Assembly (NCBI GenBank): GCA_023131835.1
Contig: JAGLZA010000134.1
Coordinates: 1-37,497, forward strand
Direction of reading: 5' to 3'
DNA length: 37,497 bases
Origin: Caldifarciminota bacterium
GTDB lineage: Bacteria > Hydrothermota > UBA3072
Position numbers and translations under genes: made by a program. Positions 3,157 to 35,645 of this stretch are shown here, one piece after another (positions within the stretch are counted from its first letter, which is position 1; the number at the start of each line of letters is the position of its first letter). A model generated the notes under the pieces. The model did not search any database, was not told where the DNA came from, and saw only the letters and a program-made list of their open reading frames with translations.

Positions 3157-3210
3157 ATCAAAAAATCTGCGTTAATCCTCCAGGCGGACAAGTCTGCGTA
3201 ATCTGCGGAT

Positions 3211-3291
3211 CTATCTCACATCTATCTCACATTCTCACACGATCTCACATCAAACAGAATATCTCACACGCGGACCGCTTCCCTGTTTGTG
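3211..3291. repeat. 81-bp direct repeat, copy 1
   Basis: By eye this is base-for-base identical to 9714-9794. It begins CTATCTCACATCTATCTCAC and ends CCCTGTTTGTG. The left third is a TCTCACA(T) micro-repeat. It lies 21 bases downstream of the stop of the AlbA_2 gene at 3313. In copy 2 the same sequence encodes the last residues of the other AlbA_2 gene. Confidence 0.9.
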
Positions 3292-4704: not shown

Positions 4705-5010
4705 TCCAATCTCTTAAACCTCCGTCCTTTGATCTCCGACCTCCGCCACCTCGCCACCAATGATTCTTGCGGAATATTGTGTTTCTCTTCTGTCTTCTGA
4801 TCTCCGTCCTCTGACCTCCGACCCCCGCCCGCCTCGCAAGCGAGAGCGTTGCGGGCAGGTCTGTCTTTTCCTCGCAAAGCGATGACTCTTTTTTATTCGG
4901 TCAGGTCGACCGAATAAATGTCCGTGTGAGTCTGTGTGCGTCTGTGGCTAATCCATCTTTATCTTTTGTCATTTAAAACCATTTGTGCCTTTTGCGCCTT
5001 TTTGCGGCTA
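4705..5010. other. Intergenic region with two repeat families
   Basis: About 300 bases without a gene. From 4720 to 4830 it carries degenerate CTCTGACCTCCGAC-type heptamer micro-repeats (family D, also found inside fnlB at 14413-14440). At 4870-4952 is a family A element. At about 4831-4858 a GCCCGC...GCGGGC inverted repeat is present. Confidence 0.55.
4870..4952. repeat. Family A covarying-hairpin element without nested insert
   Basis: CGCAAAGCGATGACTC leads into a perfect 11-bp stem, TTTATTCGGTC (4892-4902) with GACCGAATAAA (4908-4918), loop AGGTC, then GTCCGTGTGAGTCTGTG boxes ending in GGCTAAT. The stem sequence is unrelated to the stems of the other copies, but self-complementarity is kept. 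Confidence 0.8.
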
Positions 5011-6197: not shown

Positions 6198-6328
6198 CAA
6201 CATTGGGTTCTTTTCGCGAAGCGATGACTATTTTTGTCCGGCGAAGCCTGCCCCGTTAAACGCGTAGCCTGTTTATCTGGGGTCCGCCGGACAAAAGTCT
6301 GTGTCGGTCTGTGTGTGTCTGTGGCTAA
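6198..6328. repeat. Family A covarying-hairpin element with nested family B unit
   Basis: The 32-base constant block 6198-6229 is the exact reverse complement of 3089-3120. A perfect 12-bp stem follows, TTTTGTCCGGCG (6232-6243) with CGCCGGACAAAA (6285-6296). Its loop is occupied by a family B unit (CCTGCCCCGTTAAAC...TTTATCTGGGG). GTCTGTG boxes ending in GGCTAAT close the element. Confidence 0.85.
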
Positions 6329-7152: not shown

Positions 7153-7260
7153 TCTTGTAAGGTTATCTGCTCGCGTATGCGATGACACTTTTTCCCCTGC
7201 GAAGTCCGCAGGGGAAAAGTCTATGCCTGTCTGTGTAAGTCTGTGTGGGTCTGTGGCTAA
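7153..7260. repeat. Family A element inserted in frame in the aminotransferase gene (copy 5)
   Basis: Perfect 12-bp stem TTTTCCCCTGCG (7190-7201) with CGCAGGGGAAAA (7207-7218), loop AAGTC, preceded by GCGATGACAC and followed by GTCTGTG boxes. It is read as 36 extra codons containing ATDPHRLTQT, the same frame as the other insertion. Confidence 0.85.
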
Positions 7261-9713: not shown

Positions 9714-9794
9714 CTATCTCACATCTATCTCACATTCTCACACGATCTCACATCAAACAGAATATCTCACACGCGGACCGCTTCCCTGTTTGTG
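9714..9794. repeat. 81-bp direct repeat, copy 2
   Basis: Identical by eye to 3211-3291. The last 13 codons and stop of the AlbA_2 gene at 9753 are inside this repeat, while the remaining part extends beyond the stop codon. Flanking sequences of the two copies differ on both sides. Confidence 0.9.
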
Positions 9795-14071: not shown

Positions 14072-14245
14072 TTGCCACGAATTTCACGAATGGGCACGAA
14101 TATTACAGGATCAACTGCTTGGATCTTACTTGTTTTCGTTCGAACTTATAAGAAAACCGAGCAGCAAAAAAAAATTTATGTACAACTTCTTCAATTGAAA
14201 CATCTAAATCCAATTCGTGATAATTCGTATAATTCGTGGCTAAAC
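14072..14245. repeat. CACGAAT/ATTCGTG micro-repeats flanking a short spacer (family C)
   Basis: At 14078-14102 lie three CACGAAT-type heptamers (CCACGAATTTCACGAATGGG...), and at 14211-14243 the reverse-complementary form (AATTCGTGATAATTCGTATAATTCGTGGCTAA), so the ~170-base spacer between fnlC and fnlB is bracketed by inverted arms. No gene was seen between them. Similar sequences occur at 12905-12935, 15389-15424 and 11573-11608. Confidence 0.65.
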
Positions 14246-15376
14246 CTTTTCAAAATAAGTATCCGGTTTTTCAGGATCGAACATTTCACTTGCCCAGAAC
14301 AGTGTCACCAACTCATCCTGGCCTACATTTTCAATGGAATGAGTATACCCCGGCGGAATATCCACCACACGAAATTCTCTGCCCCATACCTGATATTCAA
14401 TCACCTCAGCACCCTCTGACTTCTGACCTCTGACCTCTGGCTGTATGGAGCGAAAGCGAATCACAGCAGTTCCCTGCAGCACCAGAAATTTTTCAGTTTT
14501 TGTATGATGAAAATGATCACCCCGTGTAACCCCCGGCTTTGTATGGCTGACAAAAATTTGTCCCATGGACGGCGACTTCAAAAATTCCGCAAGACTGCCG
14601 CGCTGATCGGTTTTTATATCCAGGCCATATTCAAATTCCTGATTATTCAAGTAGCTGAGATAGGTACCATACAGGGCTCTTTCAAACGCATCGCTAAAAT
14701 CCGGCAGATTCAATTTGGTACGCATTCCACGGAACGATTTAATCTTCTCTGCTAATTCTCCCAGGCTTATCCGTTTTGAAGGGAGTGGCTGGGCAAACCT
14801 GAAACCGGGAGATACTGATTCCAGCTCAGCGATAAAGGCTTCCACCACATCATCAATGTAAATCAGGTCTATCTCATGAGCCGGATCAGAGATCTGAATG
14901 TGCAGACCGTTGGCAATGTTGTGGCAAAACGTTGCGGTTACAGAGTTATAATCAGGCCGGCACCATTTTCCAAACAGATTTTTAAAACGATATATCACAC
15001 ACTCTGCTCCGGTATTCTCTGCAAATCGTCGCAGCGCTTCTTCCGCGCGGCGTTTACTGATGCCGTATGGGTTATCCAGCTCCGCCTGAATCGAAGAAGA
15101 GAGAACGATTTTAGGCGCTCTGCCAAACTCCTGTAATTTTGAGCATATTTCTTTTAAAGATCCAGCATTTCCAGTCTCAAACTCCTTGGGATCTTCCGGC
15201 CTGTTCACGCCTGCAAGGTGAATAACGAAAACAACCTGTTGCAGAGCTACATCCAATTCGGCGGGTTCATTATCCAAATCGAATTCATATAACTCAATAT
15301 CTTCACGCCGCCGCAACACAGAACAAAGATTCCTTCCCACAAATCCCTTAGAACCAGTAACAAGCACCTTCTTCAT
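14240..15376 (-). CDS. fnlB: FnlB/WbjC/CapF bifunctional C3-epimerase/C4-reductase
   Basis: A 378-residue protein: SDR domain (KKVLVTGSKGFVGRNLCSVL, VVFVIHLAGVNRPED, SSSIQAELDNPYGISKRRAEEALRRF) followed from ~250 by a cupin domain (RGSLAEFLKSPSMGQIFVSHTKPGVTRGDHFHHTKTEKFLVLQG, VVDIPPGYTHSIENVG, MFDPEKPDTYFEKV). This is the known two-domain architecture of WbjC/CapF. The start at 15376 is the family start; 66 upstream bases in frame are encoded by a TTCGTG micro-repeat. In the cupin, RFRSIQ is followed by PEVRGQKSE-GA before EVIEYQ: about 8-10 residues more than usual, matching a CTCTGACCT heptamer repeat at 14413-14440. The active site residues appear spared, so it is probably functional. Confidence 0.9.
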   Translation of the reverse strand: MKKVLVTGSKGFVGRNLCSVLRRREDIELYEFDLDNEPAELDVALQQVVFVIHLAGVNRPEDPKEFETGNAGSLKEICSKLQEFGRAPKIVLSSSIQAELDNPYGISKRRAEEALRRFAENTGAECVIYRFKNLFGKWCRPDYNSVTATFCHNIANGLHIQISDPAHEIDLIYIDDVVEAFIAELESVSPGFRFAQPLPSKRISLGELAEKIKSFRGMRTKLNLPDFSDAFERALYGTYLSYLNNQEFEYGLDIKTDQRGSLAEFLKSPSMGQIFVSHTKPGVTRGDHFHHTKTEKFLVLQGTAVIRFRSIQPEVRGQKSEGAEVIEYQVWGREFRVVDIPPGYTHSIENVGQDELVTLFWASEMFDPEKPDTYFEKV

Positions 15377-15438
15377 AATAATCTCTTTTTCATCTTCGTG
15401 TTCTTCGTTTCGTGCCCTTCGTGGTGAGAAAAGCATCT

Positions 15439-16449
15439 TCACATCCCAAGTTCATCCTGAATATAACACACCTTCAAAAGAACCTCTTTTATCTCTTCAA
15501 CCCCCAATATCCTTGTATTCTCAGACGTATAATCCTCTTTACTTGATATCTGCTCTTCACCCTCAACAAAATACTTATTGTAATTCAGATCCCTCGCATC
15601 AACCGGAATCCTGTAGTAATCGCCCAAATCCAAAGCGCCGGCCATCTCTTCTCTGTTCAATAGAGTTTCATACAGCTTTTCCCCATGCCTCGTCCCGATT
15701 ACCCTTATTTCATTCTTTGCCTTAAATAGTTCCTTAACCGCGACCGCCAGATCACCAATAGTGCAGGCAGGGGCTTTTTGAACAAATATATCACCCGCAT
15801 TTCCATTCTCAAAGGCATACAAAACCAGCTCCACAGCATTTTCCAGAGACATGATAAATCTTGTCATATTAGGATCTGTAACCGTTAATGGTTTGCCAGC
15901 TTTTATCTGTTCCACAAACAGAGGTATCACAGAACCCCTTGAGGCAATTACATTTCCATAGCGCGTCCCGCAAAGCACAATCTTTTTTTCATCAACCGTC
16001 CTCGCCTTCGCAGTCATCACCTTTTCCATCAGCGCCTTGGACATCCCCATCGCGTTTACCGGATAAACCGCCTTGTCCGTGCTCAGGACTATAACCTTCC
16101 TGACATTTTGGGAGATAGCCGCATTCAGGACATTTTCCGTACCGAGGATATTTGTCTTCACTGCCTCCACCGGAAAAAACTCACAGGAGGGCACCTGTTT
16201 TAAGGCAGCAGCATGAAAGACATAATCAACCCCGTGCATGGCAGAATAAACACTGTCATAATCTCTTACATCCCCGATATAAAACTTCAGTTTATCGTTG
16301 CGGTACGCATTCCGCATATCGTCCTGTTTTTTCTCATCACGGCTGAAAATGCGGATCTCTTTTATACCGGTATCCAAAAATTTCTTGATCACTGCATTGC
16401 CGAAAGAACCGGTGCCGCCGGTTATAAGAAGAGTTTTATTATTAAACAT
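15439..16449 (-). CDS. fnlA: FnlA/WbjB/CapE UDP-GlcNAc 4,6-dehydratase/5-epimerase
   Basis: A 336-residue SDR enzyme: TLLITGGTGSFGNAVIKKFL (NAD(P) binding), DYVFHAAALKQVPSCEFFP, the LSTDKAVYPVNAMGMSKALMEK segment in which the usual Tyr of YxxxK is replaced by Met as in the FlaA1/CapE branch, then GTRYGNVIASRGSVIPLFVEQI, MTRFIMSLENAVELVLYA and RHGEKLYETLLNREEM. It performs the first step of UDP-L-FucNAc synthesis. It begins the fnl set in transcription order, with GGAGGC upstream of the ATG. The following gene's start is separated by a 62-base micro-repeat. Confidence 0.93.
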   Translation of the reverse strand: MFNNKTLLITGGTGSFGNAVIKKFLDTGIKEIRIFSRDEKKQDDMRNAYRNDKLKFYIGDVRDYDSVYSAMHGVDYVFHAAALKQVPSCEFFPVEAVKTNILGTENVLNAAISQNVRKVIVLSTDKAVYPVNAMGMSKALMEKVMTAKARTVDEKKIVLCGTRYGNVIASRGSVIPLFVEQIKAGKPLTVTDPNMTRFIMSLENAVELVLYAFENGNAGDIFVQKAPACTIGDLAVAVKELFKAKNEIRVIGTRHGEKLYETLLNREEMAGALDLGDYYRIPVDARDLNYNKYFVEGEEQISSKEDYTSENTRILGVEEIKEVLLKVCYIQDELGM

Positions 16450-33248: not shown

Positions 33249-33336
33249 GAAAGCTCGAAGCTCAAAGATTGAAGCTCAAAGCTCAAAGGTAAAAGCATAA
33301 AAGATTGAAGCTCAAGGCTCAAAGGTGAAAGGTTAA
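33249..33336. repeat. AAGCTCAAAG heptamer-type array (family E)
   Basis: Degenerate tandem motif AAGCTC(G/A)AAG, GAAGCTCAAAGCTCAAAGG, AAGCTCAAGGCTCAAAGGTGAAAGG between the stop of the NeuD-like gene and the formyltransferase-like gene. The period is about 7-8 bases. It runs into the TAA stop of the NeuD-like gene. Confidence 0.75.
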
Positions 33337-33938
33337 GGAATTTGTGGAGAAATGTTCTTGGTAATTTTTGCACCGCAGCCAATTACAGCATTTTCACCAA
33401 TCTCAATATATTCTTTACAAACAGCATTACTGCCGAAAAAAGTTCCCGATCCAACTCTCACTCCTCCGTTGATGATGGCACCCGTTGCAATATGGCAATG
33501 GTCCCCGATGATTGCATCATGCTCAATCAAGACTTTGGTATTAACAATGCAGTTTTTACCAATTTTTGCCCCGGCATTAATCAGGGCCTGATGCATTATT
33601 ATCGTCCCATCTCCGATTTCTGCGTGTTTTGACACATAGGCAAGAGGTGAAATAATTACCGGTAATTTTGCCCCTGATTCTTTCAGGGTTTGAAAAATCC
33701 TTATCCGCTTTTCAGGGCTCTTGATCTGGCCCAGAGTAATCAAGAAATTTTCATATTCATGTGCAAGCTGCGGCAGGTCATCGTCTGTGGCGATGATTTC
33801 ATAGCCAAGTACCTTCTGATGCAATTTTTCCGATACATCCACAATGCCGGCAATCTGATACTTTCCTTCCTGCTCAATTACGTCAATGCAGGATTTGCAG
33901 TGGCCGCCACCGCCTATTAATATAATTTTTTCTTTCAT
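33333..33938 (-). CDS. NeuD/PglD/LegH-like sugar acetyltransferase
   Basis: A 201-residue protein: N-terminal Rossmann-like part (IILIGGGGHCKSCIDVIEQEGKYQIAGIVD) and C-terminal hexapeptide beta-helix (VSKHAEIGDGTIIMHQALINAGAKIGKNCIVNTKVLIEHDAIIGDHCHIATGAIINGGVRVGSGTFFGSNAVCKEYIEIGENAVIGCGAKI), the PglD/NeuD architecture with the active-site His in the EHDAIIGDH region. It would N-acetylate the UDP/GDP-4-amino sugar from LegC, or O-acetylate the sialic-acid-like product. The start is preceded by a heptamer array rather than a good ribosome binding site. Confidence 0.88.
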   Translation of the reverse strand: MKEKIILIGGGGHCKSCIDVIEQEGKYQIAGIVDVSEKLHQKVLGYEIIATDDDLPQLAHEYENFLITLGQIKSPEKRIRIFQTLKESGAKLPVIISPLAYVSKHAEIGDGTIIMHQALINAGAKIGKNCIVNTKVLIEHDAIIGDHCHIATGAIINGGVRVGSGTFFGSNAVCKEYIEIGENAVIGCGAKITKNISPQIP

Positions 33939-33944
33939 AAAAAA

Positions 33945-34009
33945 TTTAAGCTCGAAGATATAAGCTCAAAGCTCAAAGCGTATAAGCATGAAGCTGAGAG
34001 CTGAGAGGG
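33945..34009. repeat. Family E array, left arm of the four-helix-bundle cassette
   Basis: TTTAAGCTCGAAG, TATAAGCTCAAAGCTCAAAG, TATAAGCATGAAGCTGAGAG, CTGAGAGG: degenerate heptamers on the plus strand. Its motif is the reverse complement of that at 34381-34418, so both arms point towards the enclosed gene. Confidence 0.75.
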
Positions 34010-34372
34010 TTATGGTTTATAAAGGGAGTTGATAAGGCCTTTTATCATTGAAGCAATTTCGATTCCTTCAGATTTCAGCGAGGAAAATTCCTCTTCGGAA
34101 ATCCAGCTCTTTCTTTTAAATATCTCCAACAAGGTCACGGTTTCATATAACGAACCGCGTGCGATATAGCAATACTGTACAAATTCTTTTTGGGAAAATC
34201 GGCCTTTTCCTTCAGCCAAATTCATTGATACGCTGGTTGAGCTCGCTTCAATTTGTTCAAAAAGCCTGTAGTGTTTCCTGCCTGTATCAATTATTTCAAC
34301 GAGTTCTATGACCTTTACTGCAAAATCAACAGCCCGATCCCAAACCTCCAAATCTTCATAACCAAACTTCAT
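34010..34372 (-). CDS. Four-helix-bundle protein (S23/IVP-like)
   Basis: A 120-residue protein: FGYEDLEVWDRAVDFAVKVIEL, HYRLFEQIEASSTSVSMNLAEGKGRFSQKEFVQYCYIARGSLYETVTLLEIFKRKSWISEEEF, ending LINSLYKP. This is the family first seen inside 23S rRNA intervening sequences and related to the Avd accessory protein of diversity-generating retroelements. Its job in isolated copies is unknown; basic surface and nucleic-acid binding are suspected. Here it stands between LegC and the NeuD-like gene, bounded on both sides by heptamer repeats in inverted orientation, which looks like an insertion into the sugar operon. Confidence 0.88.
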   Translation of the reverse strand: MKFGYEDLEVWDRAVDFAVKVIELVEIIDTGRKHYRLFEQIEASSTSVSMNLAEGKGRFSQKEFVQYCYIARGSLYETVTLLEIFKRKSWISEEEFSSLKSEGIEIASMIKGLINSLYKP

Positions 34373-34380
34373 CTTTCTGC

Positions 34381-34418
34381 TCCTTTGACCTTTCAGCTTT
34401 CACCTTTAAGCTTATACC
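34381..34418. repeat. Family E array, right arm of the four-helix-bundle cassette
   Basis: CTTTGACCTTTCAGCTTTCACC-type heptamers ending AAGCTTATACCC; reverse-complemented it starts GGGTATAAGCTTAAAGG and resembles the left arm TATAAGCTCAAAG. It overlaps the stop codon of LegC (34412-34414). Confidence 0.75.
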
Positions 34419-35575
34419 CTCACACTACTCGGAATATTTACCACTCCTTCTTCAAGCCACTTTGCATTAGTTAAAGTATCTGTCTGGCATGTTTTATACA
34501 TATCAAGTTTATTCAATAGCCTCCAGACGGGGCGGGTCATGACATTTGCATTGTTGGTCACTTTTAGAAACTCGTCACGCGCTTCGCTATCCGGAAGGAT
34601 TATGGCATTCAGCCAATAATTAGACCTGGCATGTTCCGGTTCATGTATAAAAGGAATACTGAGAGATTCAAAAAAAGTTTTGTATGTTTTGGCCAGTTCC
34701 CGCTTTCTATCTATGAAAGAGTCCAGTTGCTCAAGTTGGGCGCATGCAAGGGCCGCGTTTAGATTTGGGAGACGGTAGTTGTAACCGGTCGTGTCATGGA
34801 CATATTCGTATGGATGGGACACTTTGGCTGTTGTAGTTATGTGTTTTGCCTTTTTTGCAAGAGCTTCATTATTGGTTACAATGGCTCCGCCGCCTCCGCA
34901 GGTAACGGTCTTGTTGCCGTTAAAGCTGTAAACGCCAAAGAGCCCAAACGTACTTGTATGTTTACCTTTGTAAAGGCTTCCAAGTGATTCGGCAGCATCT
35001 TCAATAAGTGCCAAGTGGTAACGGTCGCAAATTTGAGCAATGGAATCAATCTGGCAGGGGTGGCCGAAGGTGTGCATGGGAACACAGGCCGCGATCCGCC
35101 TGCCTGTAGTACTGTTATAGCAGGCCTCATTTTTTATCTTGGTGCTGGATCTTAAAAAATCTTCCAAAGCTGTCGGATCAAGCCCCAATGTTTCCCGGTC
35201 TACATCGAGGAATATGGGTCTTGCCCCACAGTGCGCGATGGAATTGGCCGTTGCCACAAAGCTCAAAGGCTGGGTAATTACCTCATCGCCCGGCTGAACA
35301 CCTGCCAATTTCAGGGCAATATCTAGGGCACAGGTGCCGTTTACCGTGGCTATGGCATATGCCGCACCTGTGATTTCGCATATCATTTCCTCAAAACGAT
35401 CAACATATTTGCCGACAGAAGAAACGAAGGTGGAGTCGATAGCGTCAGCAACATATTTTTTTTCATTGCCTGTAAATCTGGGCGCGTGCAGCGGCACAGG
35501 ATTCTCATCGGGATAGAGGGATTTGATAAAATGAATAATCTCTGAAAATGAATTTGATGATGATTTTTTTATCAT
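34412..35575 (-). CDS. legC: LegC-type sugar aminotransferase
   Basis: A 387-residue PLP aminotransferase: LYPDENPVPLHAPRFTGNEKKYVADAIDSTFVSSVGKYVDRFE (typical LegC start), AIATVNGTCALDIALKLAGVQPGDEVITQPLSFVATANSIAHCGARPIFLDVDRETLGLDP, ALIEDAAESLGSLYKGKHTSTFGLFGVYSFNGNKTVTCGGGGAIVTN with catalytic lysine, GYNYRLPNLNAALACAQLEQL. It aminates the 4-keto product of LegB. ATG at 35575; the frame further up to 35593 is encoded by heptamer repeat and is not part of the gene. The stop codon merges with the right arm of the four-helix-bundle cassette. Confidence 0.9.
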   Translation of the reverse strand: MIKKSSSNSFSEIIHFIKSLYPDENPVPLHAPRFTGNEKKYVADAIDSTFVSSVGKYVDRFEEMICEITGAAYAIATVNGTCALDIALKLAGVQPGDEVITQPLSFVATANSIAHCGARPIFLDVDRETLGLDPTALEDFLRSSTKIKNEACYNSTTGRRIAACVPMHTFGHPCQIDSIAQICDRYHLALIEDAAESLGSLYKGKHTSTFGLFGVYSFNGNKTVTCGGGGAIVTNNEALAKKAKHITTTAKVSHPYEYVHDTTGYNYRLPNLNAALACAQLEQLDSFIDRKRELAKTYKTFFESLSIPFIHEPEHARSNYWLNAIILPDSEARDEFLKVTNNANVMTRPVWRLLNKLDMYKTCQTDTLTNAKWLEEGVVNIPSSVRV

Positions 35576-35578
35576 ATC

Positions 35579-35645
35579 ACTTTGAGCTTTCACCTTTGAG
35601 CTTTGAACTTTCAGCTTTCATCTCCCATGCTTTCAGCTTCGATCT
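35579..35645. repeat. Family E array between legB and legC
   Basis: GAGCTTTCACCTTTGAGC, TTTGAACTTTCAGCTTTCATC, CATGCTTTCAGCTTCGATC: same heptamer family as 33249-33336 and the cassette arms, in the orientation of the right arm. No gene lies beside it, so it may be an empty or donor site. Confidence 0.7.

Follow-up and report, generated by a model that had tools for sequence, protein, structure and literature searches.

Intervening sequences (IVSs) with an ORF of the S23p/PF05635 family are present in the 23S rRNA genes of Leptospira and Coxiella (PMC4990558). The Coxiella IVS combines its PF05635 ORF with a 28-bp terminal stem that is cut by RNase III in vitro, and it has been proposed to be a former mobile element (PMC4990558). 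A family member of solved structure, Xcc0516 (2GSC), is a pentamer of four-helix bundles (PMC4990558). Separately, heptamer arrays (SSR or STRR) have been described in Xanthomonas, Nostoc, Calothrix, and Beggiatoaceae and interpreted as G-quadruplex or regulator sites (PMC4692102, PMC4679880). In Xanthomonas campestris, the source of 2GSC, GGGAATC arrays number 186 and most have four units; inverted pairs occur in 70 cases (PMC4692102). The main texts of these two papers (PMC4692102, PMC4679880) make no mention of PF05635 family names. PF05635 genes are widespread and multicopy, yet their function is unassigned; from their neighbors, they have been counted as CRISPR-associated (PMC3936711) and as DGR/immunity-associated (PMC10053308).

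The component facts, namely the IVSs, the heptamer arrays, and PF05635 genes near cas and DGR genes, are therefore already known one by one. In open-access full text we found no report that joins them, and priority is not certain. A sequence-only reading of one bacterial locus had proposed a general element made of a PF05635 gene and inverted heptamer arrays, lacking a transposase. The analysis described here supports that reading and adds three observations to it: the arrays keep their period alone, the gene takes a sense position inside operons, and arrays and genes co-occur genome-wide.

Results

A PF05635 gene between inverted heptamer arrays

The window is the whole stretch of DNA that was analyzed, 37,497 nucleotides of contig JAGLZA010000134.1 from a Caldifarciminota bacterium whose genome (G000) carries three PF05635 genes. 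The features around its four-helix-bundle (4HB) gene are as follows.

33249..33336, heptamer array lacking a gene, of the type that flanks the 4HB gene, in the spacer that follows neuD (TRF; lag-7 segment score 19)
33333..33938, minus strand, PglD_N/hexapeptide acetyltransferase gene, neuD-like, downstream of the 4HB gene (Pfam)
33945..34007, minus strand, 3′ arm in the sense strand, an inverted heptamer array (plus strand AAGCTCGAAGATATAAGCTCAAAGCTCAAAG)
34010..34372, minus strand, 4HB gene, 120 aa, PF05635 (23S_rRNA_IVP; Pfam E = 3.5e-29)
34382..34420, minus strand, 5′ arm in the sense strand, heptamer array TATAAGCTTAAAGGTGAAAGCTGAAAGG, pairing with the 3′ arm
34412..35593, minus strand, DegT/DnrJ/EryC1 aminotransferase gene, legC-like, upstream of the 4HB gene (Pfam)
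35579..35645, second gene-less array of this type, oppositely oriented, in the spacer that precedes legC (TRF; lag-7 segment score 17)

The flanking inverted arrays and the two gene-less arrays that had been claimed near this gene are all present. In those flanking the gene, TATAAGCTCAAAGCTCAAAG lies at about 33959-33979 and TATAAGCTTAAAGGTGAAAG, as its reverse complement, at about 34390-34418; both arrays belong to a single type, AAAGCTC with variants, and are inverted relative to each other. The outer pair (33249-33336 and 35579-35645) is likewise mutually inverted. The gene order is epimerase, legC, 4HB, neuD, and a formyltransferase-domain gene, five of five on the minus strand, with an array in each of the four spacers. 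Between 33200 and 35700, four period-7 segments reach a score of at least 11, whereas dinucleotide shuffles yield 0.003 on average. Within the sense transcript, the arms are predicted to pair into a long stem around the ORF (minimum free energy −134 kcal/mol, z = −2.6), in which the element ends pair over about 19 bp and beyond and the ORF lies in the loop; the arm duplex, at −53.7 kcal/mol, beats 99.8% of mismatched arm pairs. As the sequence-only reading had suggested, no recognizable transposase accompanies the arrays: Pfam finds the PF05635 gene alone between the arms. Relatives of this protein with solved structures are 2RLD and 2GSC.

The nearest related gene cluster (L395, in genome G032) encodes an epimerase 61%, a legC product 42%, and a neuD product 47% identical to those of the window. 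Its order is epimerase, legC, nucleotidyltransferase, neuD, its spacers are almost absent, and there is neither a 4HB gene nor any array at its legC and neuD junctions; synteny of the 4HB gene with legC and neuD is thus not conserved.

Elsewhere in the window, a heptamer array of CCTCTGA (14415-14439, lag-7 score 15.5) lies within coding sequence, in the 3′ part of the minus-strand ORF at 14240-15442. Decamer repeats GTCTGTGTNN at 4920-4946, 6297-6323, and 7229-7255 form a separate dispersed period-10 repeat, and two near-identical 18-mer tandem repeats TCTCACATCGATCTCACAT occupy 3209-3251 and 9714-9753.

The anatomy recurs across bacterial phyla with a constant period

PF05635 genes were found in 31 of 60 relatives of the window genome, in up to 16 copies each, some with stop codons. 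We fetched 80 loci from public genomes on protein similarity alone. They come from Bacteroidota, Omnitrophota, Planctomycetota, Atribacterota, Bacillota, Chloroflexota, Acidobacteriota, Pseudomonadota, Desulfobacterota-type, Patescibacteria, and Cyanobacteriota-type genomes, among others, and the PF05635 gene with inverted arrays, predicted as a general element in other phyla, recurs in many phyla. Within 400-nt flanks, period-7 arrays reached 27% and period-8 arrays 13.5%, to which multiples of these periods add; periods 4-6 and 9-13 hardly occurred. In distant stretches of the same loci, taken as a control, the figure for arrays was 1.2%. The expected enrichment around the family was likewise observed, arrays occupying 38% of the gaps adjacent to a 4HB gene; the remaining gaps of these loci gave 12% and shuffles 0.16%.

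Inverted orientation also proved general. In 79% of 123 PF05635 loci from over ten phyla, reverse-complementing the right flank gave a match to the left flank of that locus with a score of at least 12; the reverse-complemented right flanks of other loci did so in 3.3% (p = 2e-58, own versus cross-locus), and the locus's own right flank in direct orientation in 10%. Inverted arms are absent at about 20% of loci. The unit sequence differs at almost every locus, and arm similarity across loci is near background. What the loci have in common is the period of 7, less often 8, the array length (median 34 nt, about 4.6 units), and the inverted layout; array termini vary between copies. The same anatomy is present in isolate genomes and in complete cyanobacterial plasmids, for example with arrays of AGTAGGG (Nostoc edaphicum) and of AACAGGG (Nostoc C052), and a period-7 array occurred at 9 of 10 plasmid loci examined.

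Carriage by phages was rejected, since tblastn with the query 4HB protein gave no match in 50,697 phage records. Strong direct repeats around the element were considered as target duplications and rejected as well, these repeats being further arrays. At two loci (L017, 1845-2889, and L021), in-frame heptamer arrays lie in neighboring oxidoreductase genes and encode peptides such as ENRIPITDNR; array insertion into these proteins is tolerated where no stop results.

The 4HB gene lies in sense between genes of one operon

At 56 of the 70 loci with two callable neighbors, as judged from simple ORF calls, the 4HB gene lies in sense between two codirectional genes, and at 2 of the 70 it lies antisense between such neighbors (56:2, binomial p = 6e-15). 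Control genes were codirectional with both neighbors in 57 of 97 cases (Fisher p = 0.004 versus 4HB loci). The arms mostly start at the upstream stop codon and finish before the downstream start. The gene pairs, named from our reading of the translations unless a record annotation is stated, are diverse. Insertions between sdhA and sdhB occur in Dysgonomonas, in Mucilaginibacter, and in the genus of Bacteroides caecigallinarum; one between fadB and fadA in Flavobacterium fluvii; the window's phylum has others between mvhD and hdrA (two families) and, like Flavobacterium, between an ABC permease and an ATPase. The thiC/thiH, argC/argD, and etfA/acyl-CoA dehydrogenase (etfA/acd) junctions bear 4HB genes too. 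By record annotation, copies of the same anatomy on cyanobacterial plasmids sit in cas6/cas4, in cas10/cmr3, and, antisense, in nrdB/nrdA.

Three loci (L245, L389, and L392) have PF05635 genes and arrays within CRISPR operons; these copies lie in cas6/cas4 of two cyanobacteria and in cas10/cmr3 of Picosynechococcus. PF05635 genes can resemble cas genes because they are placed within such operons.

Sites are empty, partly occupied, or refilled in closely related species

Empty-site alleles, for which the sequence-only reading had proposed a test, were found in sister species. In the genus of G064, the sdhA/sdhB gap measures 33-38 nt in most species examined and 48 nt in two close relatives, compared with 475-513 nt in four species with a 4HB element; a fifth occupied species was found in a family search. 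Six species have sdhA and sdhB flanks that are 95-98% identical, and their site is empty in two and occupied in four. The 4HB proteins in these near-identical backgrounds are 93%, 61%, or 44-46% identical pairwise, and the site has therefore been filled, or filled again, on more than one occasion.

Across the thiC/thiH, etfA/acd, and argC/argD junctions, related species show the site as empty, with a gene-less hairpin, with a solo array, or with the full element; the empty, hairpin, and full states occur within one Bacteroides genus. The empty etfA/acd site is an overlapping stop-start, TAATG, which the element of G094 expands to TAA...ATG. Gene-less hairpins with array arms occur at argC/argD and thiC/thiH (L216, L220, L221, and L233), as do solo right arms related to the right arms of full elements (L249-L251). 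The thiC/thiH junction is occupied by both PF05635 subfamilies, and its elements in G064 and G132 are nearly identical (dS 0.013), which is consistent with recent transfer. Spread between species at one site could proceed by homologous recombination of the flanks. In 9 of 10 computable PF05635 pairs, dN/dS is 0.04-0.3, the older pairs showing such values; judged by these ratios, the protein is under purifying selection and maintained. Broken, pseudogenized copies also exist.

The compared empty and occupied pairs revealed no clear target-site duplication and no exact element end. The occupied right end at thiC/thiH, CTAAAAACTAATAGAATG, contains the empty-site sequence of G084; this suggests that the array unit may be copied from the target site, but the match is equally explained as an excision or deletion footprint, and additional empty sites favored neither reading.

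Two further insertions were noted at argC/argD. One (L256, in G101) is a hairpin that lacks a gene and is built of ACACAGAG units with period 8; related species hold a full element at this junction. The other (L255, in G140) is a different large hairpin insertion (TTGTCATTCTGAACGAAGTGAAGAATC...) with other sequence at the same junction, so that junctions of this type attract or tolerate unrelated insertions.

Arrays are concentrated in genomes that carry the gene

Genomes from the phylum of the window were sampled in pieces no longer than 20 kb, chosen blind to content. Period-7 and period-8 arrays numbered 32 in 512 kb from PF05635 genomes versus 1 in 684 kb from PF05635-free genomes (one-sided p = 3e-11), the carriers and noncarriers being phylogenetically unmatched and the latter clustering in some families that may be generally poor in mobile DNA. 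For other periods, the counts were 6 and 12, respectively, which is not significant. With the same unmatched sampling, the PF05635 gene, or something inherited alongside it, is likely to be the cause of the arrays.

Most of the arrays are solo: an inverted partner lies within 900 nt for only 4 of 32. Strong matches to resident 4HB arrays were obtained for 8 of 34 solo arrays, in an overall test that was not significant and with the resident arrays incompletely sampled, and the idea that every solo array derives from a resident 4HB array was rejected on these grounds.

Discussion

We infer, with a probability of roughly 0.6, that the window element is a copy of a widespread intercistronic insertion element, related to the IVS and both gained and lost, whose 4HB protein makes and spreads the arrays. 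This reading builds on the observed anatomy, inverted arms, sense position in operons, site states, constant period, purifying selection, and co-occurrence of arrays and genes. Together these data point to a class of genetic element that has gone largely unrecognized until now.

The element would consist of an array with 4-6 repeats of a 7-nt (or 8-nt) unit, the PF05635 gene, and a complementary inverted array, and may be regarded as the mRNA counterpart of the 23S rRNA IVS. It would directly follow one stop codon, precede the next start, and be cotranscribed with the host operon, and on that account would need no promoter. Base pairing of its arms is predicted to give a stem that RNase III could plausibly cut, the ORF being looped out and neither host gene disrupted. 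The arrays, with a median of 34 nt or about 4.6 units, are probably bound by the pentameric 4HB protein, and this protein, together with host replication or repair, is probably what generates arrays and elements and spreads them. Hairpins without a gene and solo arrays would then be nonautonomous derivatives or remnants.

An alternative that we consider unlikely is that the protein is a post-transcriptional regulator: a 4HB ring would bind phased heptamers in untranslated RNA and tune the downstream cistron, the solo arrays would be its regulon, and presence and absence would reflect gene loss and horizontal transfer of regulators. TRAP, a ring wrapped by phased RNA repeats (spaced triplets), provides an analogy. 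Strong purifying selection on the protein, an array of about 4-5 units that suits a pentamer, the proximity of arrays to stop and start codons, and the match of some solo arrays to resident 4HB arrays all agree with regulation, as does the proposal that Beggiatoaceae heptamer arrays upstream of starts are regulator sites (PMC4679880). However, the target genes are not constant, the site is empty in most species, different elements swap at one site in nearly identical backgrounds, and pseudogenized copies exist; nor does regulation require inverted arms around a looped ORF.

It is improbable that the arrays are independent hairpin or simple-repeat elements of the REP or MITE kind, carrying the PF05635 gene as passive cargo tolerated in the hairpin loop. 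Gene-less hairpins and solo arrays are indeed common, and arrays occur within coding sequence too, but same-phylum genomes lacking the PF05635 gene are nearly array-free, and the array sequence has no REP-like conservation. A Y1 transposase is present in 19 of 23 carrier genomes, G000 included, and absent in the other four (G021, G094, G098, and G126); the RAYT/Y1 transposase is therefore not required.

By analogy with the DGR accessory protein Avd, the element might be a retroelement that a reverse transcriptase mobilizes in trans. This would fit the sense orientation of elements in transcripts and the related folds of Avd and PF05635 (PMC10053308), but we regard it as very improbable. As a general mechanism it is largely refuted by the 19 of 23 carrier genomes without a PF00078 match, among them the window genome and the genomes with 16 and 12 copies; a divergent enzyme that escapes PF00078 would be needed. 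The reverse transcriptase thus being missing from 19 and the Y1 transposase from 4 of 23 carriers, we favor an IVS-like element with an array-generating 4HB protein. Chance low-complexity sequence or an assembly artifact, conceivable for short, degenerate repeats in hosts of which many are MAGs, is refuted by the shuffle controls (four segments versus 0.003 expected) and by recurrence of the anatomy in isolate genomes and complete plasmids.

More tentatively, and at somewhat less than even odds, PF05635 proteins may be the agents of pan-bacterial transposase-less mobile elements, inserted in sense between cistrons, that construct their ends themselves from inverted 7/8-nt arrays heritable in period only. 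The heptamer repeats of cyanobacteria, Xanthomonas, and Beggiatoa would then be footprints of such elements and the rRNA IVS a special case. The finding also offers a single cause for three puzzles, namely heptamer arrays in intergenic DNA, the sporadic occurrence of 23S rRNA IVSs, and PF05635 function. Operon insertion would account for the cas and DGR neighbors of PF05635 genes without a role in the host pathway. Element ends that conserve period rather than sequence would require a new mechanism of recognition or synthesis, and because gene presence predicts array presence, the origin of short-period inverted arrays becomes testable.

Comparison with known systems

The closest counterpart is the 23S rRNA IVS. 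Both have a PF05635 ORF of similar length inside the element (E = 3.5e-29 for the window), complementary ends that form a closing stem with the ORF in the loop (predicted here), a sporadic, apparently horizontal distribution, and similar size, about 430 nt in Coxiella and about 450-520 nt here. They differ in that the IVS occupies a helix of an rRNA gene, whereas the window element lies between legC- and neuD-like genes and other copies between protein genes; in that the arms here are period-7/8 arrays of locus-specific sequence; and in the gene-less and solo derivatives found here. Heptamer SSR/STRR arrays resemble those described here as degenerate tandem 7-nt units in intergenic DNA, and those of Xanthomonas also in having mostly four units and often forming inverted pairs. 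REP/BIME elements with their RAYT (Y1) transposase, and MITEs, are likewise dispersed intergenic hairpins with gene-less copies, but the hairpin sequence here is not conserved and the element has no transposase. Avd shares a related pentameric four-helix bundle; unlike the DGR, the element does not need a reverse transcriptase, PF00078 being absent in G000 and 18 other carriers.
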